A stretch of DNA of 35,632 bases. Origin: an uncultured Cytophagaceae bacterium (lineage in GTDB: Bacteria > Bacteroidota > Bacteroidia > Cytophagales > Spirosomataceae). The DNA lies in NCBI GenBank assembly GCA_903933935.1, contig CAIZMB010000081.1:1-35632 (forward strand), written 5' to 3'. Below the pieces are notes generated by a model. The model saw only the letters and a program-made list of their open reading frames with translations, was not told the origin of the DNA and made no database searches. Both the position numbers and the translations under genes were made by a program. This document shows, one piece after another, positions 24,128 through 35,463 of this stretch; the first letter of the stretch is position 1, and every line of letters starts with the position of its first letter.

Positions 24128-24496
24128 CTATGAACTTAAAATATTGAAATCTTCTCTTTTCTGAAGAAAATAAGGCGTTGCGGCTTCAAATTCATTCATT
24201 AACATCAAAAAATACTTTCTTTCAAAAACTAAAAACTTACAATCAACCAACGTTTTCATACTGCAGCCATAATTTTTACCATCCATAGCTTCTTCAATTC
24301 CAATGAAACAAGGCAAATTTATGATCCTTGATTTTCCTTTTTCTAAGGGCCAATCCATTAATAAACTTCCTTCCTTTAAAAAAAAAACGAATTCTGCTTT
24401 TTGCCCTTTTCGAAAAATATGTTCTTCAGACAAATACCTCATCTCAATCCCACTAGCCAATATTTTTTTTTCTGTTTCTCTAAAGGTATCTGCCAT
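24128..24496 (-). CDS. Crp-type cyclic-nucleotide-binding-fold protein without HTH
   Basis: A 122 aa protein consisting of just the beta-roll sensor fold of Crp/Fnr regulators: HIFRKGQKAEFVFFLKEGSL, then the strand ending INLPCFIGIEEAMDG, SMKTLVDCKFLVFERKYF and a final helix. It ends with no DNA-binding helix-turn-helix and lacks an obvious canonical phosphate-binding-cassette arginine, so cAMP binding is doubtful. I use the ATG at 24494-24496; a TTG six codons upstream is less likely. The gene is divergent from ccoI and shares about 150 bp of regulatory region with the oxidase cluster. A regulatory or redox-sensing role is suggested by position only. Confidence 0.72.
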   Translation of the reverse strand: MADTFRETEKKILASGIEMRYLSEEHIFRKGQKAEFVFFLKEGSLLMDWPLEKGKSRIINLPCFIGIEEAMDGKNYGCSMKTLVDCKFLVFERKYFLMLMNEFEAATPYFLQKREDFNILSS

Positions 24497-24536
24497 TTGA
24501 ATCAAATTAATCAACCGTTTTAGGTTAATTAGTTGA

Positions 24537-24544: not shown

Positions 24545-24647
24545 CGGGGCTTTATTCGATTAAAAACTAACATACATCAGTTTTACAATTGCTATTTGTC
24601 AATAAAATAATTACGCTGAGTCAACATATTTGTCTAAAATATTTTTG

Positions 24648-27098
24648 ATGAATCTCGTTGCACCTACTCAGAAAGAAATTGACACCGATTTAAACTGCTT
24701 CCATTGTGGAGAATTAAATCATAACAATCCAATCCTTTATAATAAGCATTCATTTTGTTGCTTGGGGTGCCAACAAGTCTACAAATTATTATCCGACCAT
24801 TCGTTAGAAGATTATTATGACTGTGAAGTGGTCCCAGGAATATCCCCAAATGCGCAAAGATTCAGTTTTTTAGACCATCCTATTTTTAGAGATAAACTAA
24901 TCAGTTTCACGCATCAAGGTGTTTCAAAAGTTACTTTCTTCCTTCCGGGAATTCACTGTAGATCATGTTTATACCTGTTAGAAAACTTATATAAGCTTAA
25001 TAGCGCGATCATAAAGACCTCTTTAAATTTCACAAAAAAAGAATTGAGCATTTGGTTCCAAGATGCGGAAATTTCTTTGGGTGAATTGGCTAATTTCCTT
25101 GCTAGTATCGGTTACGAGCCTTTTGTTGATTCAGTTGATTCTCAAGCCAGTAAACATAAAAGTTTAAAAAAAGAAAATGACTTATTTATAAAATTAGGCA
25201 TTGCTGGTTTTTGTGCTGGAAATGCCATGCTATTTAGTTTTCCTGAATATTTAGGCATCGACGATATAGATTTAAAATACCTTTTTGGATATTTAAACCT
25301 TTTTCTAGGAACCATAGCTGTTTTTTATTCAGGCTCTGATTACTTTAAAAACGTTTGGTCCCATCTGAAATTAAAGAAGATAACGATCGAGCTTCCTATT
25401 TTATTGGGAATCTTAGTGGGATATTCTAGAAGTGTTTACGAAATTCTTTCTCATTCAGGTGCCGGATACATTGACTCTGTTTCGGGTTTATTATTTTTTC
25501 TTTTAATAGGTAAATGGTTCCAACAAAAGTCTTTTGATTTTTTATCATTTGAGCGCAATTACACTTCCTATTTTCCTTTAACCATCACCAAATTAATGAG
25601 TGGGGATGAGGTTTTAGCACCCCTACAAGAAATAGCTATTGGAGATCATTTAGTGATTAGAAACCAAGAAATTATTCCTGCAGATGCTATTTTATATAGA
25701 GGCACATCTGATATGGATTATAGTTTTGTGACTGGCGAAAGTGAAAAAATTAATATCAAGGAAGGTGATTCCATTTTTGCAGGAGGAAAACATGAAGGGG
25801 AACTCATTGAGATTGTTATCATTAAGGAGCTTAAGCAGAGCCATTTAACTCAATTGTGGGAGGAACAAGTCTTTAAAGATCCCATTCATAAATCGGAGAA
25901 TTGGGAGAACTTCGCTAATTCCGTAGGCGTCTATTTTACTTATGGATTAATAAGTTTAGCCAGCGCAGTTGGTATATATTGGTTTATGTTTGATCCTACT
26001 AAATGGCAAAACTCAGTGGTCAGCATTTTGGTGATTGCCTGTCCTTGTGCATTAGCTATTTCATATCCGTTTGCTCTGGGACATGGCATGCGATGGTTGG
26101 CCAAATTTAATTTTTTCATCAAAGACACCCAATCCTTAGAAAGGTTGGCACAAATAGATACCATCGTTTTTGACAAAACTGGGACTCTAACATTAACAAT
26201 TAATCAGGGAGCCAAAGAACATTTTAACCGCACATTAACATCCATTGAATGGTCAAATCTCTGTTCATTGGTGAATCAATCCACTCATCCTATCTCAAGA
26301 CAAGCTCGGAAATACATACAGCATAAAGGTATTAGTCAAGCAGAAAAACCTGAATTATTTAATGAATTTTCAGGAAAGGGCTTAGAAGGGTATTTTAATG
26401 GAATTAAGTACCGAGTAGGTTCAGCCAAGTTTACAGGCCATCAGGTAAACACTTCAAACACGTATCAAATGTCTGAGTCTCAACTGTATGTTCTGATTAA
26501 TGAGGAACCTCTAGGTTATATTGAATTTCCATGGGAAAATAGGCCAGGAGTGGAGTTGATGTTGCGCCAACTTCAATCCAAATATGACGTTTATTTACTT
26601 TCAGGGGATAAAAAAGAGCATGCCGCGCACTTATTAGATTGGTTTCCGATACCTGAATCTTGCCAATTTGAATGTAGTCCCATGGATAAAATGAATTTCA
26701 TTCGTTCCTTACAAGAGCAGGGAAAAAAAGTAGCCATGGTAGGAGATGGATTGAATGATGCCGGAGCTATTAAACAGGCACATATAGGCATTGCTGTTTC
26801 AGATGATCACCTTCATTTTACACCCGCTAGTGATGCTATTTTACAGGGAAGTTCATTGCCCAATCTACCCAAATTCATCCATTTTGCTCAAATAGGCCTG
26901 AGGCTAATTAAATTCAGTTTTATCCTATCGCTTTTTTACAATGCGATTGGGTTAAGCTTTGCTATTCAAGGAACCTTATCCCCCTTGATTGCCGCCATAC
27001 TGATGCCAGTTAATTCTTTTAGCATGTTAGCGATAGCCAACATCGGAATGAACTATCAAGGGAAAAAATTAAAATCAGAATATAAATCATATAATTAA
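24648..27098 (+). CDS. ccoI: Copper P1B-type ATPase for cbb3 oxidase assembly
   Basis: CcoI/FixI-type ATPase that exports copper across the membrane for the heme-copper centre of cbb3 oxidase. The 816 aa protein begins with a Cys-rich metal-binding region (CFHC at 17-20, CCLGC at 37-41), then an HMA domain with GIHCRSC at about 100-106. Next come transmembrane helices, the transport motif IACPCALA, the phosphorylation site DKTGTL, and the hinge GDGLNDAGAI. The start is the ATG at 24648; a TTG 18 nt upstream is in frame but not conserved. It heads a cluster followed by ccoS, ccoNO, ccoQ and ccoP, which supports the oxidase-assembly role over copper detoxification. Confidence 0.93.
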   Translation: MNLVAPTQKEIDTDLNCFHCGELNHNNPILYNKHSFCCLGCQQVYKLLSDHSLEDYYDCEVVPGISPNAQRFSFLDHPIFRDKLISFTHQGVSKVTFFLPGIHCRSCLYLLENLYKLNSAIIKTSLNFTKKELSIWFQDAEISLGELANFLASIGYEPFVDSVDSQASKHKSLKKENDLFIKLGIAGFCAGNAMLFSFPEYLGIDDIDLKYLFGYLNLFLGTIAVFYSGSDYFKNVWSHLKLKKITIELPILLGILVGYSRSVYEILSHSGAGYIDSVSGLLFFLLIGKWFQQKSFDFLSFERNYTSYFPLTITKLMSGDEVLAPLQEIAIGDHLVIRNQEIIPADAILYRGTSDMDYSFVTGESEKINIKEGDSIFAGGKHEGELIEIVIIKELKQSHLTQLWEEQVFKDPIHKSENWENFANSVGVYFTYGLISLASAVGIYWFMFDPTKWQNSVVSILVIACPCALAISYPFALGHGMRWLAKFNFFIKDTQSLERLAQIDTIVFDKTGTLTLTINQGAKEHFNRTLTSIEWSNLCSLVNQSTHPISRQARKYIQHKGISQAEKPELFNEFSGKGLEGYFNGIKYRVGSAKFTGHQVNTSNTYQMSESQLYVLINEEPLGYIEFPWENRPGVELMLRQLQSKYDVYLLSGDKKEHAAHLLDWFPIPESCQFECSPMDKMNFIRSLQEQGKKVAMVGDGLNDAGAIKQAHIGIAVSDDHLHFTPASDAILQGSSLPNLPKFIHFAQIGLRLIKFSFILSLFYNAIGLSFAIQGTLSPLIAAILMPVNSFSMLAIANIGMNYQGKKLKSEYKSYN

Positions 27099-27104
27099 TT
27101 CGAT

Positions 27105-27124
27105 AACATGACTATAATCATGTT
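27105..27124. other. Small hairpin between ccoI and ccoS
   Basis: AACATGA and TCATGTT form a 7-bp perfect stem around a 6-nt loop. It sits 7 nt after the ccoI stop in a 75-nt gap. No T run follows beyond TTTTC, so this is a processing or weak attenuation site at best. Confidence 0.4.
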
Positions 27125-27173
27125 TTCTGTAGACTCAAAAGTGGAAATTTGACTCACCAAAAACAGGCGATAA

Positions 27174-27335
27174 ATGGCAATATTGTACATCATGATTGGA
27201 TTAAGTTTGAGTATGTCCATTGGATTTGTCATTGCATTTATTTGGTCCATAAAATCAGGCCAACAAGATGATCTTAACACGCCCGCTATGCGCATTTTGA
27301 TGGATGAAAATAAGACAAAAAACAGAAATCTATGA
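27174..27335 (+). CDS. ccoS: cbb3 oxidase assembly protein CcoS
   Basis: A 53 aa protein (MAILYIMIGLSLSMSIGF at its N-terminus) with one transmembrane helix and the CcoS signature WSIKSGQQDDLNTPAMRIL following it. The SGQ-x-DDL-x-xPA-x-RIL pattern is diagnostic of CcoS, which is required for heme and copper insertion into the cbb3 catalytic subunit. The gene sits between ccoI and ccoNO, and its TGA overlaps the ATG of ccoNO (ATGA), so translation is likely coupled. It is short enough to be missed by length-limited gene callers. Confidence 0.93.
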   Translation: MAILYIMIGLSLSMSIGFVIAFIWSIKSGQQDDLNTPAMRILMDENKTKNRNL

Positions 27336-29458
27336 GCACAAAATCCAACCCATTAGAACAATTTTATTACGATAACAAAGCTGTTCGAAATTTTGCCATT
27401 GCCACCATCATTTGGGGAATCGTGGGCATGCTGGTCGGCGTAATCATTGCCACACAATTATTTGAACCCGCCGCAAATTTCACACAATATGGCTCTTTTG
27501 GCCGAATAAGACCTTTGCATACCAATGCAGTCATTTTTGCTTTTGTAGGAAACGCCATATTTGCTGGAGTGTATTATTCCCTACAAAGGTTATTAAAAGC
27601 AAGAATGTTCAGTAATTTCTTAACAAGTTTTCACTTTTGGGGCTGGCAAGCTATTATCGTTGCTGCGGCCATTACCTTACCACTTGGTATTACCACCTCA
27701 CATGAATATGCTGAATTGGAGTGGCCCATTGATATTGCGATTACCTTGGTTTGGGTTGCTTTTGGTATCAACATGTTTGGGACTATTTTAAAAAGAAGAG
27801 AAAGGCACTTATATGTAGCTATATGGTTTTACATCGCCACATTTGTGACCGTAGCAGTTTTGCATTTGACCAACTCGATGCAATTGCCTATTTCGATTTT
27901 CAAATCCTATTATGTGTACGCAGGAGTTCAGGATGCATTAGTTCAGTGGTGGTATGGTCATAATGCCGTGGCATTCTTTTTAACCACCCCATTTTTAGGA
28001 TTAATGTATTATTTCTTGCCAAAGATGGCTAATAGGCCTGTATACTCTTATCGACTATCCATATTGCATTTTTGGGCGTTGATTTTCATTTACATTTGGG
28101 CCGGTCCACATCATCTTTTATATTCTAGCTTACCCGATTGGGCACAATCATTAGGGGTTGTATTTTCCATTATGTTAATTGCTCCTTCCTGGGGAGGAAT
28201 GATCAATGGACTTTTAACCTTAAGAGGAGCTTGGGACCAGGTCAGAGAAAACACGATATTGAAATTTATGGTGGTAGGAATTACCACATATGGGATGGCC
28301 ACATTTGAAGGCCCTATGTTAAGTTTAAAGAATATCAATGCCATTGCGCACTTTACGGATTGGATTGTTGCGCATGTTCACGTAGGAGCCTTAGGTTGGA
28401 ATGGATTCTTAACCTTTGCGATTTTATATTGGATGATTCCCAGGATTTTTCAAACAAAGCTTTATTCTGAAAAACTATTGAAAACGCACTTTTGGATCGC
28501 TACGATCGGCATTGCGTTTTATACGATCCCCATGTACATTTCCGGATTTACCCAAGGTATGATGTGGAAACAATTTACGGCTGAGGGAAATCTTCAATAT
28601 GGAAATTTTTTAGATACAACGCTTCAGTTAATTCCTATGCATCAAATGCGCGCATTGGGAGGAACTTTATATTTGATAGGCGCCATATTAATGGCCGTTA
28701 ATTTATTTAAAACAATGGCGCAGGGAAAATTATTAGCCAATGAACCCGCGGAAGCCCCTGCTTTATTAACGATAGACGAAAAAGCACCAGATGCCCATTG
28801 GCATCGTTGGATTGAAAAAAGACCTATTCAATTATTGGTAGCCTCTTTAATCATGATTTTAATAGGTTCTTTAGTCGAGCTAGTACCCACCTTCATGGTA
28901 AAATCGAATATGCCCACGATCGCTGCGGTTAAACCTTATAGTGCTTTAGAGTTAGAGGGAAGAGATATTTATATTCGAGAAGGTTGTGTGAGTTGCCATT
29001 CTCAATTAGTCCGACCCTTCAGAAGTGAAACGGAACGGTATGGCGATTTCTCTAAATCAGGTGAATTTGTGTACGACCATCCATTTTTATGGGGATCTAA
29101 GCGTACAGGTCCAGATTTACACCGCGAGGGTGGAAAATATCCCAATTCGTGGCATTATTATCACATGAAAGAGCCCAGCTCCATGTCACCCGGATCCATC
29201 ATGCCTGCATACGATTGGCTTTATGAGCAAACACTTAATACGAGCATGACACAGAAAAAATTAAGCGCCATGAAAACGTTGGGCGTGCCTTATGATGATG
29301 GCCAAATTACCAATGCAGTGAGTGATTTAAATCGACAAGCAAAAGAGATTCAAACGCAGATGGCTGGAGAGAAAATTAAAATAGGGGCCGACAAAGAGAT
29401 TATTGCTTTGATCGCTTATTTACAAAGATTAGGAACCGACATAAACAAAAAACAATAA
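27332..29458 (+). CDS. ccoNO: Fused cbb3 cytochrome c oxidase subunits I and II (CcoNO)
   Basis: A 708 aa fusion typical of Bacteroidota. Residues 1-480 are CcoN, the catalytic heme-copper subunit with about 12 helices. Conserved segments include RPLHTNAVIFAFVGN (heme-ligand His), QWWYGHNAVAFFLT, GPHHLLYSSLPDW (copper-site histidines) and VAHVHVGALGWNGF. Residues about 520-708 are CcoO, a membrane-anchored monoheme cytochrome c with REGCVSCHSQLVRPF (CxxCH at about 552-556) and RTGPDLHREGGKYP, and a Met ligand probably in SPGSIMPAYDW. The enzyme reduces oxygen to water with high affinity. The order ccoI, ccoS, ccoNO, ccoQ, ccoP is clean. Confidence 0.97.
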   Translation: MSTKSNPLEQFYYDNKAVRNFAIATIIWGIVGMLVGVIIATQLFEPAANFTQYGSFGRIRPLHTNAVIFAFVGNAIFAGVYYSLQRLLKARMFSNFLTSFHFWGWQAIIVAAAITLPLGITTSHEYAELEWPIDIAITLVWVAFGINMFGTILKRRERHLYVAIWFYIATFVTVAVLHLTNSMQLPISIFKSYYVYAGVQDALVQWWYGHNAVAFFLTTPFLGLMYYFLPKMANRPVYSYRLSILHFWALIFIYIWAGPHHLLYSSLPDWAQSLGVVFSIMLIAPSWGGMINGLLTLRGAWDQVRENTILKFMVVGITTYGMATFEGPMLSLKNINAIAHFTDWIVAHVHVGALGWNGFLTFAILYWMIPRIFQTKLYSEKLLKTHFWIATIGIAFYTIPMYISGFTQGMMWKQFTAEGNLQYGNFLDTTLQLIPMHQMRALGGTLYLIGAILMAVNLFKTMAQGKLLANEPAEAPALLTIDEKAPDAHWHRWIEKRPIQLLVASLIMILIGSLVELVPTFMVKSNMPTIAAVKPYSALELEGRDIYIREGCVSCHSQLVRPFRSETERYGDFSKSGEFVYDHPFLWGSKRTGPDLHREGGKYPNSWHYYHMKEPSSMSPGSIMPAYDWLYEQTLNTSMTQKKLSAMKTLGVPYDDGQITNAVSDLNRQAKEIQTQMAGEKIKIGADKEIIALIAYLQRLGTDINKKQ

Positions 29459-29644: not shown

Positions 29645-30382
29645 ATGGAAACCATTTATTTAGAAAATTGGCTAATAAGCTTAGTCATATTAACGAGCAT
29701 CGTCATATTCATCGTCACAGTGCAATTAAATTATACACTAAAAAAAATAGCCCAAGCCCAAAATAAACCCCATGAAAAAGCGTTAAGTTGGTGGCAATCA
29801 TTTACGGGATTAAGGCCTATAGAGGATGAAAAGGACATCATGATCAAAGATTCTCATGATGGAATCATTGAATTAGACAATCCCACACCGCCTTGGTTTA
29901 TGTATTTATTCTACTCAACTATTTTATTTGGTGTGATTTATTTAATTAATTACCATGTCATTCAAGATGGAAATATTCAGGAAACCGAGTATAAAACCGA
30001 TATGGCTAAAGCTGAAAAAGAGCGGGCCAATTACCTGAAAAAATTTGCTAAATCAATCAATGAGAATAATGTCGTATTAGCGACTTCTAAAAAGGATATA
30101 CTAGAGGGATCCAACATCTACAAAACAAATTGTGTGGCTTGTCATGGAAATTTAGGGCAGGGAGGAGTAGGTCCTAATTTCACGGATCGGTTTTGGATTC
30201 ATGGGGCTGGTATCAAAGATTTGTTTAAAACGATTACCAACGGAGTACCCGAAAAAGGGATGATTGCATGGAATAAAACAATCAATCCCTTGCAAATTCA
30301 ACAAGTTGCTTCCTATATTTTAACTTTACAAGGTACAAATCCTCCTGGAGCCAAAGAGCCTCAGGGAATTGAAATCAAATAA
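29645..30382 (+). CDS. ccoP: cbb3 oxidase subunit III (CcoP), mono-heme form
   Basis: A 245 aa membrane-anchored cytochrome c. Two helices lie at about 8-30 and 82-105; the second follows NPTPPWFMYLFY, the conserved CcoP N-terminal domain signature. After a charged coiled-coil-like stretch there is a single cytochrome c domain with TNCVACHGN (CxxCH at 163-167) and the probable Met ligand in EKGMIAW. Proteobacterial CcoP has two heme c sites; here I find only one. It would pass electrons to CcoO. It is directly followed by a DUF2892 gene. Confidence 0.93.
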   Translation: METIYLENWLISLVILTSIVIFIVTVQLNYTLKKIAQAQNKPHEKALSWWQSFTGLRPIEDEKDIMIKDSHDGIIELDNPTPPWFMYLFYSTILFGVIYLINYHVIQDGNIQETEYKTDMAKAEKERANYLKKFAKSINENNVVLATSKKDILEGSNIYKTNCVACHGNLGQGGVGPNFTDRFWIHGAGIKDLFKTITNGVPEKGMIAWNKTINPLQIQQVASYILTLQGTNPPGAKEPQGIEIK

Positions 30383-30395
30383 AAACTCCTACACT

Positions 30396-30623
30396 ATGAT
30401 GAACCTAAGAAAAAACGTCGGAAAAATGGACCAAATCGTCCGTATCTCGTTAGCCATTGCCATTGCTATTCTAACTTACTCAGGAATTATCCCAAAAGAC
30501 ATTAGCTTAGCGGTCTATTTAGTCGCTATTTTTATTGCTTTAACGGGTTTTGTTAGAATTTGTCCGCTTTATAAAGTTTTGCATAAAAGTACGACCCGCG
30601 AAGAACCTCCACATTTCAGTTAA
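30396..30623 (+). CDS. DUF2892 family inner-membrane protein
   Basis: A 75 aa protein with the DUF2892/YgaP-like pattern: NVGKMDQIVRISLAIAIAIL, a two-helix hairpin, and the end GFVRICPLYKVLHKST with a CPLY motif. I choose the tandem ATG at 30396/30399, where the family normally begins; a longer in-frame start would overlap ccoP. Function is unknown; its place between ccoP and ccoG suggests co-expression with the oxidase. It is followed immediately by a hairpin terminator. Confidence 0.78.
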   Translation: MMNLRKNVGKMDQIVRISLAIAIAILTYSGIIPKDISLAVYLVAIFIALTGFVRICPLYKVLHKSTTREEPPHFS

Positions 30624-30655: not shown

Positions 30656-32062
30656 ATGCCTCAATTTAATTTAGAAAATGATGATTATCGCAATCATCTG
30701 TACAATCAAGCCAAAGACGGGAAAAGACTCTGGATCTACCCAGGAAGGATTATAGGGAATTTATATCGCGCTAGAACCTATTTTTCCTATGTGCTTTTAA
30801 TCTTGTTGTTTGGATTGCCGTGGGTGGAGATTTCTGGGCAACCGGTTTTCATGTTCAATGTAATGGAGCGTACTTTTATATTCTGGTCTATTCCATTTTA
30901 TCCGCAAGATTTTCATTTAGTGGCCTTAGGAATTGTCTGTTTTTTAATCTTCATAAGTTTGTTTACTGTGCTATTTGGCAGAATTTGGTGTGGTTGGGCC
31001 TGCCCTCAAACTATATTCATGGAAATGCTATTCAGAAAAATTGAATATTGGATCGAAGGGGATGATAAGGCGCAAAGGAGGTTAGATGAGGGTCCTTGGA
31101 ACCAAGAGAAGATTCTTAAAAAGTCAAGCAAGCATTTCATCTTTTTGATATTAGCTTTTGCCATTTCAAATACCTTCCTTATGTATATCATAGGAAAAAA
31201 AGAATGGTTGAAATTAGTGATTGAGCCACCCATGAACCATTTGATTGGGTTTATGGCCATCTGGATTTTCACGGCTGTATTCTATTTTGTATTTGCCCGA
31301 TTTAGAGAAATCGTTTGTATGGTGGTCTGTCCCTATGGAAGATTGCAAGGAGTTTTGTTAGACAATAATTCTATTTTAGTCCAATACGATCATAAAAGGG
31401 GAGAGCCTAGAGGGAAAATTACTAAAGGAGAAACTTCTACAAATCATGGAGATTGCATTGATTGCCACTGGTGCGTGCGTGTTTGCCCGACCGGAATTGA
31501 CATACGAAATGGGAGTAACCAATTGGAATGTATTGGTTGTACCTCATGCATCGATGCCTGTGACGAGGTCATGGAAAAAATCAATAAGCCTAAAAATTTA
31601 ATCCGCTATGATTCCCTCAACGGGGTTACTTCAGGTACTAAGCTAAAAATTACCACACGGATTATGGCCTATAGCATTGCATTAATGGCTATTATTGGGG
31701 TATTTGGCTATTTACTTATTACTAGAAAAAATTATGAAACCACGCTTTTGCGTATGCCAGGAATGACCTATCAATATGATGAAAAAACGCATGAGGTGAG
31801 TAATTTATACCAAATTGAAATTTTAAATAAATCCAAAGGCAAGCAGCACTATAAAATTTCAGTAGATCCTCCTTTGAAATTAATTTGGGTAGGAAAGGGG
31901 ATAAGTATGATTGAAAATGGAAAAATGGCCAAAGGAGAGTTTTTTATAAAAGGATTAGTGGGCCAACAACCTATAAATGAAAAGTTACCCATCATGGTCA
32001 CTGATTCTGAGGGGGATACGGAAACAATTAAAACAAGTTTTATACAACCAGATGAAGAATAA
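30656..32062 (+). CDS. ccoG: cbb3 oxidase accessory iron-sulfur protein CcoG
   Basis: CcoG/FixG/RdxA is a membrane-bound ferredoxin-like protein that reduces copper for cbb3 assembly. The 468 aa protein has four to five helices, the RIWCGWACPQTIFMEM segment, VVCPYGRLQG, and two [4Fe-4S] Cys sets: CIDCHWCVRVCPTGI and CIGCTSCIDACDEVM. These are followed by another helix and a C-terminal immunoglobulin-like domain (about 360-468). The ATG abuts a hairpin, leaving no room for a leader of its own except in read-through mRNA. The next in-frame ATG is far downstream within the first helix, so this start is probably right. It overlaps fixH by 11 nt. Confidence 0.95.
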   Translation: MPQFNLENDDYRNHLYNQAKDGKRLWIYPGRIIGNLYRARTYFSYVLLILLFGLPWVEISGQPVFMFNVMERTFIFWSIPFYPQDFHLVALGIVCFLIFISLFTVLFGRIWCGWACPQTIFMEMLFRKIEYWIEGDDKAQRRLDEGPWNQEKILKKSSKHFIFLILAFAISNTFLMYIIGKKEWLKLVIEPPMNHLIGFMAIWIFTAVFYFVFARFREIVCMVVCPYGRLQGVLLDNNSILVQYDHKRGEPRGKITKGETSTNHGDCIDCHWCVRVCPTGIDIRNGSNQLECIGCTSCIDACDEVMEKINKPKNLIRYDSLNGVTSGTKLKITTRIMAYSIALMAIIGVFGYLLITRKNYETTLLRMPGMTYQYDEKTHEVSNLYQIEILNKSKGKQHYKISVDPPLKLIWVGKGISMIENGKMAKGEFFIKGLVGQQPINEKLPIMVTDSEGDTETIKTSFIQPDEE

Positions 32063-32507
32063 CAAGTCATTTAAGTTCCACTGGGGACATGGAATCATTA
32101 TTACATTTATCCTTTTTGGCGGATTTATGGCCTATTTCTATATCAATATGACGCATGAAAATATTGACCTTGTGGGTAAACAATATTATCAGGATGGTCA
32201 AAATTTCCAAGAAAAAATAAATGAGCGAAATGGAGCGAATCATCTTTTAGAAAAACCTATTTGTGAGTTTAGCGAAGATTTTCAAGCGGTCCGAATCACT
32301 TATCCCAAGTCCATACAAAAAATATCCTTGGTATTTTATAGGCCATCGGATTCCAAGCTAGACCAACAAATCAACCTGTCTAAATTGTCGGGGGATTTTC
32401 AAATGATTAAAACATCTTTTTTAAAGAAAGGTCCCTGGAAATTATCCATTCATTGGGTGCAAGACAATCATAAATATCAGCAAGATCATCGAATTGATGT
32501 GCCATAA
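32052..32507 (+). CDS. fixH: FixH-family protein
   Basis: A 151 aa protein with one N-terminal helix (about 10-30, GIIITFILFGGFMAYFYI) and a periplasmic beta-rich domain. The segment ENIDLVGKQYYQDGQNFQEKI is the FixH signature. FixH is needed for cbb3 maturation in rhizobia; its exact role is unclear, perhaps copper handling with CcoI. The ATG at 32052 lies inside the end of ccoG (11-nt overlap), giving a conserved N-terminus. A longer in-frame start far inside ccoG is not supported. Confidence 0.9.
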   Translation: MKNNKSFKFHWGHGIIITFILFGGFMAYFYINMTHENIDLVGKQYYQDGQNFQEKINERNGANHLLEKPICEFSEDFQAVRITYPKSIQKISLVFYRPSDSKLDQQINLSKLSGDFQMIKTSFLKKGPWKLSIHWVQDNHKYQQDHRIDVP

Positions 32508-32518
32508 ATAGCATTTTT

Positions 32519-33181
32519 ATGAATACTTGGTACTACAGTTTCTTTATAGGTTTAGCGGGTAGTTGGCATTGCCTGATCATGTGCGGCCCGATAGTAGCTT
32601 CTATTAATACCAAAGGGAAATCGAATCTCCGAATGATTCTCTATCCGCTAGGCCGAATTCTGATGTACGGAATTTTGGGATATTTAGTGGCGGGCATGGG
32701 TTCCATTTGGCTTTTTCCATCCTGGTGGTACATGTATTACATCGCAGCAGGTATTTTGATTATCATGGTGATGACCCAAAAAATAGGAGATGGGCTGTTG
32801 CTTTTTTTACATGAAAGTATAGGCAATTATTTACGTAAAAAAGGGATGCAATGGGGTATTTTAGGATATTTTATGGCCGGCTTAGCTAATGGATTAATGC
32901 CATGCGGATTAGTTGTAGCAGGATTGAGTGTTGCGATGATACAACCAAATCCTTATTTAGGATTTTTAAGTATGGCTAGTTTTGGTATTGCGACCTTGCC
33001 TGCGCTCCAACTTTATGTTTGGGGATTAAAGAAAATAAACCTTAAACCCTTGATGTATTTAGGCTGGGTCATATCCGTCCTATTAATTTTCCGAGGAACA
33101 TGGGGGATTGGAATGAATCAATCCAATTATTTAAAGCATTCGAATGTAAGTCCGATTATTTGTCATCCCTTTTCAAAATAG
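32519..33181 (+). CDS. SafE/TauE-like membrane protein of the cbb3 cluster
   Basis: A 220 aa integral membrane protein with about six helices, of the sulfite-exporter TauE/SafE-like (CcoH/DUF-type) group regularly found after fixH in Bacteroidota oxidase clusters. Two conserved motifs are visible: GLAGSWHCLIMCGPIVAS at the N-terminus and GLANGLMPCGLVVAGLS in the middle, each with a Cys next to Gly/Pro. This resembles CcdA/copper-transport-like proteins more than a true sulfite exporter. A role in copper or thiol supply to the oxidase is an inference from position. It is the last gene of the cluster and converges with the regulator gene 4 nt away. Confidence 0.8.
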   Translation: MNTWYYSFFIGLAGSWHCLIMCGPIVASINTKGKSNLRMILYPLGRILMYGILGYLVAGMGSIWLFPSWWYMYYIAAGILIIMVMTQKIGDGLLLFLHESIGNYLRKKGMQWGILGYFMAGLANGLMPCGLVVAGLSVAMIQPNPYLGFLSMASFGIATLPALQLYVWGLKKINLKPLMYLGWVISVLLIFRGTWGIGMNQSNYLKHSNVSPIICHPFSK

Positions 33182-33185
33182 CCTT

Positions 33186-34241
33186 TTAGTATTTCAAATT
33201 AGCTAGGGCTAAAGGTTTTAAAATTTTCATTTCGCTGCCTTTGATTTCCACCAGGCCTTCTTTTTTAAATTCGCTTAATGTTCTGATGACCGATTCGGTC
33301 GCGGTACCCACTCGGGAAGCTAAATCTTCTCTAGATAATTTCATGGTAATGGGACTTTCCATATTCGTTCCGTAGGTTTTGGCTAGTTCCACTAATGCGG
33401 CTGCGACACGCATGCGAAGGGATTGGTAAGCCATCGACATGAGAATAGCTTCGTTTTTAATCAAATACTTGGTCAATTCCTTTCTGAAAAATATTTCTAA
33501 ATGGATATTCTCCTTAATGATGGCTTGGAAATCTTTTGCAGAAATACTGATGACTGTGGCTTCTTCCAGTGCTTCGGCTGATTCTCTATAGATTTGATTT
33601 TCTAGAATGTCGACAAACCCAAAGAACTCACCTTCTTTGACAAAGGAAGTGATAAAATATTTCCCATCTCGGTTCGTATGGTAGGTTTTAATCTTTCCTT
33701 TTTGGAGAAAATATAAGCGGGCAGGGTTGTCGCCTTCGGAATATACAATTTGCTTTTTATTGATTGCAGATGATCTTTTTTCTTTGGGGTATTGAGTAAA
33801 ATCTAAAAATTCTAACGCTTCGTGCGCTAAGGCCACCTCTGAATGAGAATCGTTTTGCAAAGATGTATAACCTTCAAATTTTTTGAGACGGGATTCGATG
33901 GCTTTAAGTAACTCGACTTCTTGGAAAGGTTTCGTCAAATAGTCATCGGCACCCATTTCCATGCCCTTGCGCATGTCGGCACGATCCGTTTTTGCGGTCA
34001 GAAAAATGAAAGGAACCTTACTTAAAATATCATTGCTTGAAAAAACCTGAAGTACTCCATAGCCATCTAAATGGGGCATCATGATGTCGCAAATAACGAT
34101 ATCGGGGGTGGATAATTTAGCCAAACGAACTCCTTCGATGCCATCGGAAGCTTTTTCTACTTGGTATCCTGAAAGTTCTAATAGCTCTGCCGTGTTTTCA
34201 CGAATATCGAAGTTATCTTCAATGATTAATATTTTAGTCAT
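33186..34241 (-). CDS. Response regulator fused to a Crp/Fnr-type transcription factor
   Basis: A 351 aa two-module regulator. Residues 1-120 are a receiver domain with Glu8/Asp9, phospho-acceptor Asp52 (CDIMMP), Thr82 and Lys104 (KPF). Residues about 150-265 form a Crp-type beta-roll sensor with KQIVYSEGDNPARLYFLQKG and EGEFFGFVDILE. The C-terminus is a Crp HTH (about 300-345, KLSREDLASRVGTATESVIR) in which Glu316 and Arg320 match the DNA-contact residues of Crp/Fnr. No Fnr-type iron-sulfur cysteines were found. It is translated after a PAS histidine kinase with an 8-nt overlap, and it faces the cbb3 cluster, so it probably controls respiratory genes. The fused receiver would let phosphorylation gate an otherwise ligand-type regulator. 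Confidence 0.9.
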   Translation of the reverse strand: MTKILIIEDNFDIRENTAELLELSGYQVEKASDGIEGVRLAKLSTPDIVICDIMMPHLDGYGVLQVFSSNDILSKVPFIFLTAKTDRADMRKGMEMGADDYLTKPFQEVELLKAIESRLKKFEGYTSLQNDSHSEVALAHEALEFLDFTQYPKEKRSSAINKKQIVYSEGDNPARLYFLQKGKIKTYHTNRDGKYFITSFVKEGEFFGFVDILENQIYRESAEALEEATVISISAKDFQAIIKENIHLEIFFRKELTKYLIKNEAILMSMAYQSLRMRVAAALVELAKTYGTNMESPITMKLSREDLASRVGTATESVIRTLSEFKKEGLVEIKGSEMKILKPLALANLKY

Positions 34242-35463
34242 TTTTGTGGTTTTTAAAAGGTATTATAAAATTCAAAACGGTTCCTTTATTTAATTCACTA
34301 ATAATTTGAACTTTACCACCTAGCAACTCGATGTATCGGTCGATTAAGTGTAATCCTAAACCGGTACCTTGAATTACATTGACATTCCCCCCTCGGAAAA
34401 AGCGCTCAAAAAGATGCTTTTGATCTTCTTGGCCAATGCCCACACCCTGGTCAATGATATTAATTTCGAGGGATTCAATGGTAGAAACTGCGTTAAGTTT
34501 AACGTCCTTTTCAGAAAATTTCAAGGCATTAGACAAACCATTCAATAGGATATTTCGGAGGATTGAGCTATCTGAAATGCAGGTAGGTAAACCTGAAAAA
34601 TCAATGTTAATTTGTTGGCCTGTCTTCCTTAACGCCCCTAGTTCAGTGGAAATATTTTCCAAAAATGGTTCTATTTGAATAGTAGAAAGGTGTAATTCTA
34701 CCTTTCCGTCTTCAAGTTTACCTACAGACAAAAATTCTTCTAAAATTTCAGTTAGGTTAGAAACCGACGATTTAATGCGATTGATATGATTTAGACGTTT
34801 TTCTTGGTCTGTTTCTTTATGATATTTTTCAATTAGGGTTGCAGAGCTCAGAATAGCGGTTAGTGGTGTCCTAAATTCATGGGAAGCCATGGACACAAAG
34901 CGGGTTTTTAGGTCGCCTAGCTCAATCTCTTTTTGTAATGAAATTTCAAGCTCGTGTGTATTCTTCTCTAATTTCTCTAGGGTATTTTGCAATGCTTGGG
35001 TGCGAATTTTAACTTCCTCCTCCAGTGTTTCGTTTAATTGGTTTACCTCTTGATTTTTCAAGATAAGCTCCATTTCCACTTGGCGCTTTAACGTCACATC
35101 GCTGACAAAAGCAATGTAGTATATTTGCTCGTTCTCTTTAAAGTGGCTTAAGCTAATTTCAATGGGAAAAAGTGATTCGTCCTTTCGCTTGGCTTTAAGG
35201 TCTAAACCGATTCCCATAGGCCTAGAGATAGGGGAAGAATTTAAGTGATTTAGATGACCATGGTGGCGATCCTTAAGGTGATTGGGAATTAAGATGGAAA
35301 TATTTTTACCGATAAGTTCATTATGTTCAAATCCAAATAATCGGTCAGCAAAATAATTTGAAATAAGTATTTCGAAGGAGGCATTTGTCACTAAAATGCC
35401 GATGGCAGCTTCATTAAAAATGGCCTCAAATTGGAATGAACTAGGGAGTTGCTTGGTAACCAT
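34234..35463 (-). CDS. PAS-domain sensor histidine kinase
   Basis: A 409 aa kinase with no transmembrane helix, so probably cytoplasmic. It has a PAS domain (about 11-125) with LIPNHLKDRHHGHLNHL and RPMGIGLDLKAKRKDESLFP, and a coiled coil (about 128-185). The HisKA domain has the phospho-His in SMASHEFRTPLTAIL (His195), and the HATPase domain has Asn308/312, DQGVGIG and GTGLGLHL. His67 sits where FixL has its heme-ligating His, but similar His residues occur in non-heme PAS domains and the FixL distal Arg is Leu here. The end overlaps the response regulator start by 8 nt, so the two are a coupled pair. A direct repeat ATCAAT-N4-ATCAAT lies at 35541-35556 upstream. Confidence 0.93.
   Translation of the reverse strand: MVTKQLPSSFQFEAIFNEAAIGILVTNASFEILISNYFADRLFGFEHNELIGKNISILIPNHLKDRHHGHLNHLNSSPISRPMGIGLDLKAKRKDESLFPIEISLSHFKENEQIYYIAFVSDVTLKRQVEMELILKNQEVNQLNETLEEEVKIRTQALQNTLEKLEKNTHELEISLQKEIELGDLKTRFVSMASHEFRTPLTAILSSATLIEKYHKETDQEKRLNHINRIKSSVSNLTEILEEFLSVGKLEDGKVELHLSTIQIEPFLENISTELGALRKTGQQINIDFSGLPTCISDSSILRNILLNGLSNALKFSEKDVKLNAVSTIESLEINIIDQGVGIGQEDQKHLFERFFRGGNVNVIQGTGLGLHLIDRYIELLGGKVQIISELNKGTVLNFIIPFKNHKND

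Follow-up and report, generated by a model that had tools for sequence, protein, structure and literature searches.

A receiver-Crp/Fnr fusion regulator as a probable two-component low-oxygen switch beside the cbb3 oxidase genes of a Cytophagaceae bacterium

The locus

The window analysed here is a stretch of 35,632 nucleotides from an uncultured Cytophagaceae bacterium (Bacteroidota, Spirosomataceae; assembly GCA_903933935.1, contig CAIZMB010000081.1). It carries the genes of a cbb3-type cytochrome oxidase (cco genes) next to a histidine kinase gene and the gene of a response regulator in which a receiver is fused to a Crp/Fnr module. The kinase-regulator pair is probably (at about 0.73) a two-component low-oxygen switch for the cco genes, derived from an FNR-type regulator. 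The literature found on oxygen control of cbb3 oxidase is mainly on Proteobacteria.

The regulator gene (33186..34241, minus strand) encodes 351 amino acids, with a receiver at residues 4-116 (phospho-acceptor D52), a Crp/Fnr beta-roll at 161-245 and a Crp helix-turn-helix (HTH) at 278-348. The preliminary description of this DNA placed the regulator downstream of, and overlapping, a PAS histidine kinase; the two open reading frames (ORFs) indeed overlap by 8 nt, the kinase (PAS-HisKA-HATPase_c) occupying 34234..35463 on the minus strand. An ORF of more than 250 amino acids lies directly upstream on the same strand in 74 of 81 regulators, counted by length and place and not each confirmed as a kinase.

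The cco cluster is on the plus strand. It comprises a ccoI-type heavy-metal P-type ATPase gene (24630..27098), ccoS (FixS; 27174..27335), a ccoN-ccoO fusion for cbb3 subunits I and II (ccoNO; 27332..29458), ccoP (29645..30382), a gene for a YgaP-like small membrane protein (30369..30623), ccoG (30656..32062), ccoH (FixH; 31977..32507) and a DsbD_2/SafE-like membrane protein gene (32519..33181) that is convergent with the regulator gene. The cluster ends four bases from the regulator stop codon, at 33181. Divergent from ccoI is a gene for a 128-amino-acid protein (24128-24514, minus strand) with a Crp beta-roll and no HTH match; a homologue lies beside ccoI in another locus (L063). It may act with the regulator as a partner, or against it as a decoy.

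The regulator protein

The regulator had been described as a complete receiver (Asp52) joined to a Crp beta-roll and HTH with conserved contact residues, and the domain matches and alignment bear this out. Its ORF matches the Pfam domains Response_reg, cNMP_binding and HTH_Crp_2 with E values of 2e-28, 2e-19 and 3e-16. The receiver active site is complete: E8, D9, D52 and K104 are invariant in all 22 aligned rows (the regulator and 21 relatives), while position 82 is T in 21 rows and S in one. Residues E316, I319 and R320 of the recognition helix are kept in all 22; they form the E..IR pattern, which we take to be the residues that read the DNA box in FNR and FixK. The one cysteine of the protein is C51, in the receiver beside the phospho-acceptor; the regulator therefore lacks the N-terminal cysteine cluster of the FNR type.

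CRP binds the phosphate of cyclic AMP through a cassette of Glu, Arg and Ser residues. The position of the phosphate-contacting Arg (aligned by eye) is E or D in all 22 regulators and the position of the Glu is variable. Control of the Crp half by a cyclic nucleotide, with the receiver merely tuning the response, would account for the cNMP_binding match; the altered cassette makes it highly improbable.

The predicted structure of the regulator has a mean predicted local distance difference test score (pLDDT) of 86.7 and a predicted template modelling score (pTM) of 0.58. Its C-terminal part resembles CRP/FNR structures; the placement of the receiver relative to the rest of the protein is uncertain in the model. 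Of the 60 solved structures listed, the Porphyromonas gingivalis Crp/Fnr protein PDB 2gau is the best Crp-type match by sequence, aligning with residues 154-341; unlike the regulator, the 2gau chain (232 residues) has no receiver. FixJ is absent from the receiver matches among those 60 structures and the 25 NCBIfam rows listed, and the closest receiver relatives among the listed matches are of the RpaA/PleD/PhoB type. The output domain is Crp-type, and the NarL/LuxR-type HTH and FixJ-like receiver that mark FixJ are not found here.

A predicted DNA site upstream of the cbb3 genes

Palindromes were counted de novo in the 300 bp upstream of 21 ccoI and 28 ccoNO genes. ATGA-N6-TCAT, TGAT-N4-ATCA and TGAC-N4-GTCA are near the top of the count. 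The combined box, TGAY-N4-RTCA, occurs upstream of 13/21 ccoI genes (0.7 after shuffling) and 22/28 ccoNO genes (1.0 after shuffling), as against 0/26 for ccoP and 1/27 for ccoG. Masking of ccoS frames, which were recognised in two rows, leaves the ccoI and ccoNO counts unchanged.

In the window, the predicted binding site is TGACTATAATCA (27109..27120, no strand assigned), the core of AACATGACTATAATCATGTT. It lies upstream of ccoS-ccoNO, ccoS being the first gene past it, and sits within the perfect inverted repeat AACATGA/TCATGTT. The longer form ATGAYN4RTCAT occurs at 22 places in the genome of the bacterium, versus three for a reversed control; two of the 22 were judged intergenic, the window box and one on contig C110. 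By script the window box falls inside a reverse ORF of 66 amino acids, which was taken as spurious. Across 18 rows from the genus and its sister genus the window box is exact in 13, has one mismatch in two and is absent in three.

The preliminary description had the regulator controlling the convergent cluster from ccoI to safE. The cco genes do appear to be the likely target, on the grounds of linkage, co-occurrence and a suitably spaced palindrome; the control point differs, since the exact box precedes ccoS-ccoNO and there is none before ccoI in the window. Boxes with one mismatch are at chance level in the window (58, versus 59 by chance), so the near-matches before ccoI at 24568 and 24590 are not claimed.

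The -7 element of Bacteroidota is TAnnTTTG, and -41.5 is the usual position of class II activators of the CRP/FNR family. A -7-like TTTG (27148..27151, plus strand) ends 37 bp from the centre of the window box, which is the modal spacing. Since TTTG lies at this distance, the box would be near -41.5 relative to the start that the -7 element implies. Among 49 box sites in fusion-bearing genomes, 14 have a TTTG ending 37 bp from the box centre and 13 have one ending at 59 bp (14 and 13 of 43 sites with ccoS masked); none of 300 shuffles reaches the 37-bp peak. The second distance is 37 + 22; tandem boxes, observed directly in a large number of promoters, match this difference of 22 bp. Full matches to TAnnTTTG are rare at box sites (four cases). 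A longer pattern (box, T-run and TTTG, one mismatch allowed) found two other places in the genome and missed the cco site.

Distribution and linkage to cbb3 genes

A search for receiver-Crp HTH proteins near cbb3 genes in Bacteroidota, as the preliminary description had advised, shows that the fusion is common in this phylum and is no one-off. Of 292 genomes sampled from the order, 160 (in 50 of 109 genera) encode a match to the regulator at E <= 1e-40, as do 31 of 59 relatives at the same threshold; chance would come nowhere near such a distribution. A scan of named genomes gave at least 80 regulator loci with titles mostly from Bacteroidota; three of the 80 loci listed carry Proteobacteria titles and are possibly misbinned. 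A contig of A. beregesia (Aquirufa), from a genome placed in the genus of the window, has a relative at 71%, which points to Aquirufa as the likely source of the window. On plasmids of Hymenobacter, Runella and Spirosoma, matches bear the annotation 'response regulator' (in one case 'transcriptional regulator'), and several lie beside a PAS kinase; the architecture is thus already in the databases. No functional description of a receiver-Crp regulator of cbb3 oxidase was recognised in the titles and abstracts that searches of an open-licence library listed.

The regulator is often close to cco genes. Of the 80 loci listed, 31 have a ccoNO or ccoG gene (>300 bits) no more than 10 kb away, as do 17 of the 42 whose flanks are complete, and 42 of the 88 regulator/ccoNO pairs with coordinates among the matches listed are at most 15 kb apart. 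Of the 292 genomes in the order sample, 140 have both regulator and ccoNO, 20 have the regulator only, 77 have ccoNO only and 55 have neither (Fisher p 1.8e-8, relatedness ignored). In the genus (37 genomes, the window's own and 36 others) the counts are 22 with both, one with the regulator only, 14 with neither and none with ccoNO only. Many of these 37 genomes are incomplete and adjacency favours joint absence, so co-occurrence in the genus is supporting evidence only. One genome (G010, locus L061), with a regulator 96% identical to that of the window, retains the kinase and the regulator, the latter beside a weak ccoH match, and lacks any ccoNO match; this is an apparent recent loss of the oxidase cluster.

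The box is also concentrated around the regulator gene. In the 80 loci listed it occurs in 210 of 969 upstream segments, versus 5, 6 and 5 for control palindromes and 12.6 for shuffling. In 20 genomes, 71/305 segments are boxed in the 20-kb stretches around the regulator, versus 6/285 in distant 20-kb stretches of these 20 genomes; with cco genes excluded, 58/262 segments near the regulator are boxed, again versus 6/285. Boxed families in the loci listed include ccoNO (17/30), Usp (15/31), ccoI (12/25), HemA (5/6), Hsp20 (5/7) and a ScdA_N/hemerythrin protein (4/5).

It is conceivable in principle that the linkage to cco genes reflects inheritance of a neighbourhood and no regulation; adjacency and common descent do explain part of the co-occurrence. 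This explanation is scarcely more probable than control by a cyclic nucleotide, as the linkage recurs in differing spacings and in convergent, divergent and co-directional arrangements, and the box, its spacing and the partial replacement of the regulator by stand-alone FNR (see below) are not consequences of adjacency.

The partner kinase

The PAS domain of the kinase is nearest to the heme PAS domains of DosP (9e-14) and FixL (1.5e-13), the top matches among solved structures and the sole two below 1e-10. H67 aligns with the proximal heme His of FixL and DosP, and is invariant in all 20 aligned partner kinases; four rows were left out of this alignment (one from a plasmid record, one cut by the end of its locus and two whose PAS was unusable). 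A FixL-like GIGRE stretch is present in four partner kinases (L036, L048, L082, L096). Judged from its layout alone, the kinase seems to leave little room for a membrane sensor. It is likely to sense oxygen or another gas through a heme PAS.

The heme pocket itself also provides arguments against this assignment. The distal Arg of FixL and DosP is Leu in the kinase of the window, and the residue at this site differs among the 74 upstream ORFs (R in 22, M in 19, L in 12 and others in 8); the PAS motif is missing in 13 of the 74, some of which are cut. A His at the proximal position would in any case be no proof of heme. DNA binding may therefore be as proposed here while the kinase responds to a cue other than oxygen at heme (redox state, nitric oxide, sulfur species or a metabolite), or while the PAS is structural only. 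This is a serious possibility, if less probable than oxygen sensing. It is opposed by the nearest solved matches, FixL and DosP, by the GIGRE stretch, and by the boxed cco, hemA and ScdA/RIC-type families, which presumably suit low-oxygen physiology.

Relatives without the fusion

Several results weigh against a dedicated switch of this kind. A box upstream of ccoI or ccoNO is found in 38/40 fusion-bearing genomes (1.9 after shuffling), and also in 32/40 fusion-less genomes (1.3 after shuffling). Because start codons of ccoS can spell the box, ccoS frames were masked, giving 37/40 and 32/40; the masked frames were recognisable in only seven and eight rows. The site alone thus fails to identify the regulator that reads it. 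The TTTG offsets of 37 and 59 bp recur at 8 and 8 of 35 sites in fusion-less genomes, where the largest TTTG peak is directly beside the box. Twenty of the 160 regulator-bearing genomes have no ccoNO. A clade resembling A. beregesia has regulator and cco genes and no box before ccoS (L162, L163 and L165, the three rows mentioned above; L164, L166 and L167, which were not among the 18 aligned rows, also gave none in a strict search within 700 bp). The kinase gene of the window has no exact box in front of it. Finally, another Crp-HTH protein is encoded in the genome of the window (contig C51), with the helix REVISR and a correctly spaced box before a neighbouring gene.

Two simpler marks of the fusion were rejected. 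The box is not specific to it, given the 32 boxed fusion-less genomes, and tandem boxes 22 bp apart are not a mark of receiver dimers, since the 59-bp offset occurs in both groups (13/49 and 8/35).

Fusion-less genomes have other proteins that could read the box. A stand-alone relative of the Crp half of the regulator (E <= 1e-8) is present in all 29 fusion-less genomes searched, with best scores of 70-128 bits, and lies within 15 kb of ccoNO in 14 of them. In 28/29 the best stand-alone protein has a CxxC towards its N-terminal side together with more cysteines. The recognition helix is GTATE[ST]..IR, with variants such as GTVKETAIR; that of the fusion, GTATESVIR, is similar. When 43 fusion-bearing genomes were queried with one of these FNR-like proteins, eight had a stand-alone protein of at least 100 bits and a ninth had one at 86 bits. 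As this query was not that of the fusion-less search, the contrast between 29/29 and 8/43 is inexact. The genome of the window has no stand-alone FNR-like protein at E <= 1e-15.

In a tree of Crp parts, the halves taken from fusions form one clade (99/100) adjoining the stand-alone FNR-like proteins of Bacteroidota, while three distant Crp proteins are set apart on very long branches (split 94/88). The tree would allow change in either direction between fusion and stand-alone protein.

These data bear on whether a different Crp/Fnr protein, such as that of contig C51, reads the cco box, with the receiver-Crp regulator serving other genes. The boxes of fusion-less genomes and the C51 protein, with its REVISR helix and its box and TTTG before a neighbouring gene, would suit this. 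It is nevertheless unlikely: the C51 protein has no E..IR helix and, on its very long branch, is remote from fusion and FNR-like proteins alike, regulator and ccoNO are jointly present or absent in 36 of 37 genus genomes, and boxes are concentrated around the fusion gene even when cco genes are excluded. The C51 box (L396; C51:33275-33317) has TTTG at 37 bp and precedes a gene named by eye as a TauE/SafE-like permease. It overlaps the end of another Crp/Fnr gene and may be a target of that protein itself.

The relatives also bear on descent. The preliminary description saw the FixJ and FixK roles merged in one polypeptide. As a functional analogy this stands, in that the protein would work like FixJ plus FixK in one step. 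By descent it does not: a FixJ-FixK fusion is unsupported, as no FixJ is among the matches listed, the best receiver relatives being of the RpaA/PleD/PhoB type, and the Crp half groups with FNR-like proteins of Bacteroidota. Replacement of an iron-sulfur input by a receiver and kinase, with box and core target retained, would fit better, and 'FNR-type regulator with a receiver input' is the more apt description of the protein. This reading is preferred because fusion-less relatives have a stand-alone FNR with a similar helix and because the receiver is not closest to FixJ.

Proposed mechanism and comparison with known systems

Under the two-component reading, the FixL/DosP-like PAS would sense oxygen or a related gas or redox cue and alter autophosphorylation of the kinase. 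Phosphate would then pass to D52, a transfer suggested by the complete receiver and the overlapping genes. The phosphorylated receiver would bring the Crp/Fnr dimer into its DNA-binding state, for which neither a cyclic nucleotide nor an iron-sulfur cluster would be needed. The dimer would bind TGAY-N4-RTCA (27109-27120 in the window, centred some 41 bp before the probable start), a step for which the comparative evidence is strong; ccoS-ccoNO and the cco genes after it would be activated as a result. In relatives, the regulator probably also acts on ccoI, Usp, hemA, hsp20 and the ScdA/RIC-type gene. In evolution, a receiver and kinase would have taken the place of the N-terminal cysteine input of an FNR-type regulator, the DNA site and core target being kept.

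In two articles (PMC7888657, PMC4999443), the Crp/Fnr-type FixK of the rhizobial FixL-FixJ-FixK system is described as reading a TTGAT-N4-ATCAA box at cbb3 genes. The present system resembles this in that a PAS kinase and a receiver protein lead to a Crp/Fnr-type factor; in contrast to it, receiver and factor are one protein here, so there would be no transcriptional relay. The Rhizobium hFixL-FxkR system is likewise an alternative two-component input to cbb3 control in which FixJ is replaced. FxkR acts via fixK at a K-box, according to PMC7888657, whereas here the receiver protein itself bears the Crp HTH. With FNR and FnrN the regulator shares the Crp fold, a helix of the E..IR type and an identical box upstream of cco in sister lineages; unlike them, it has a receiver in place of the N-terminal cysteine cluster.

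More broadly, the low-oxygen regulon of Bacteroidota may consist of one Crp/Fnr module with exchangeable inputs, either the iron-sulfur cluster of a stand-alone FNR or a heme-PAS kinase acting via a fused receiver. At the cbb3 locus one input would mostly stand in for the other, with the box, the 22-bp tandem spacing and the core targets unchanged. The odds on this wider proposal are about even. If true, the circuit of a large phylum would be shorter, since a single protein would take up the output of the sensor kinase and contact the promoter. Related lineages differing in their input module would then form a natural swap experiment in one- versus two-component control. A general question could then be put to the test, namely what a cell gains or loses if direct sensing gives way to a phosphorelay and the regulon is held constant.

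Additional box-bearing genes

Intergenic boxes with TTTG occur on contigs C131, C102 and C69 of the same genome (L402, L401 and L397), before two membrane-protein-like genes and one methyltransferase-like gene as judged by eye. An exact box at 533-544 of the window precedes a fatty acid desaturase gene (619-1380), an oxygen-using type of enzyme, and has no TTTG at the modal spacing.

Around the regulator gene, a family of 13 members (4 boxed) and a large kinase/regulator cluster (34/175 boxed) show no enrichment relative to the remaining genes of these loci. A family of 121-amino-acid proteins with no Pfam match (e.g. L079:11184-11549) has 16 members in 15 loci, with boxes before 9/16; it is a possible new low-oxygen gene.

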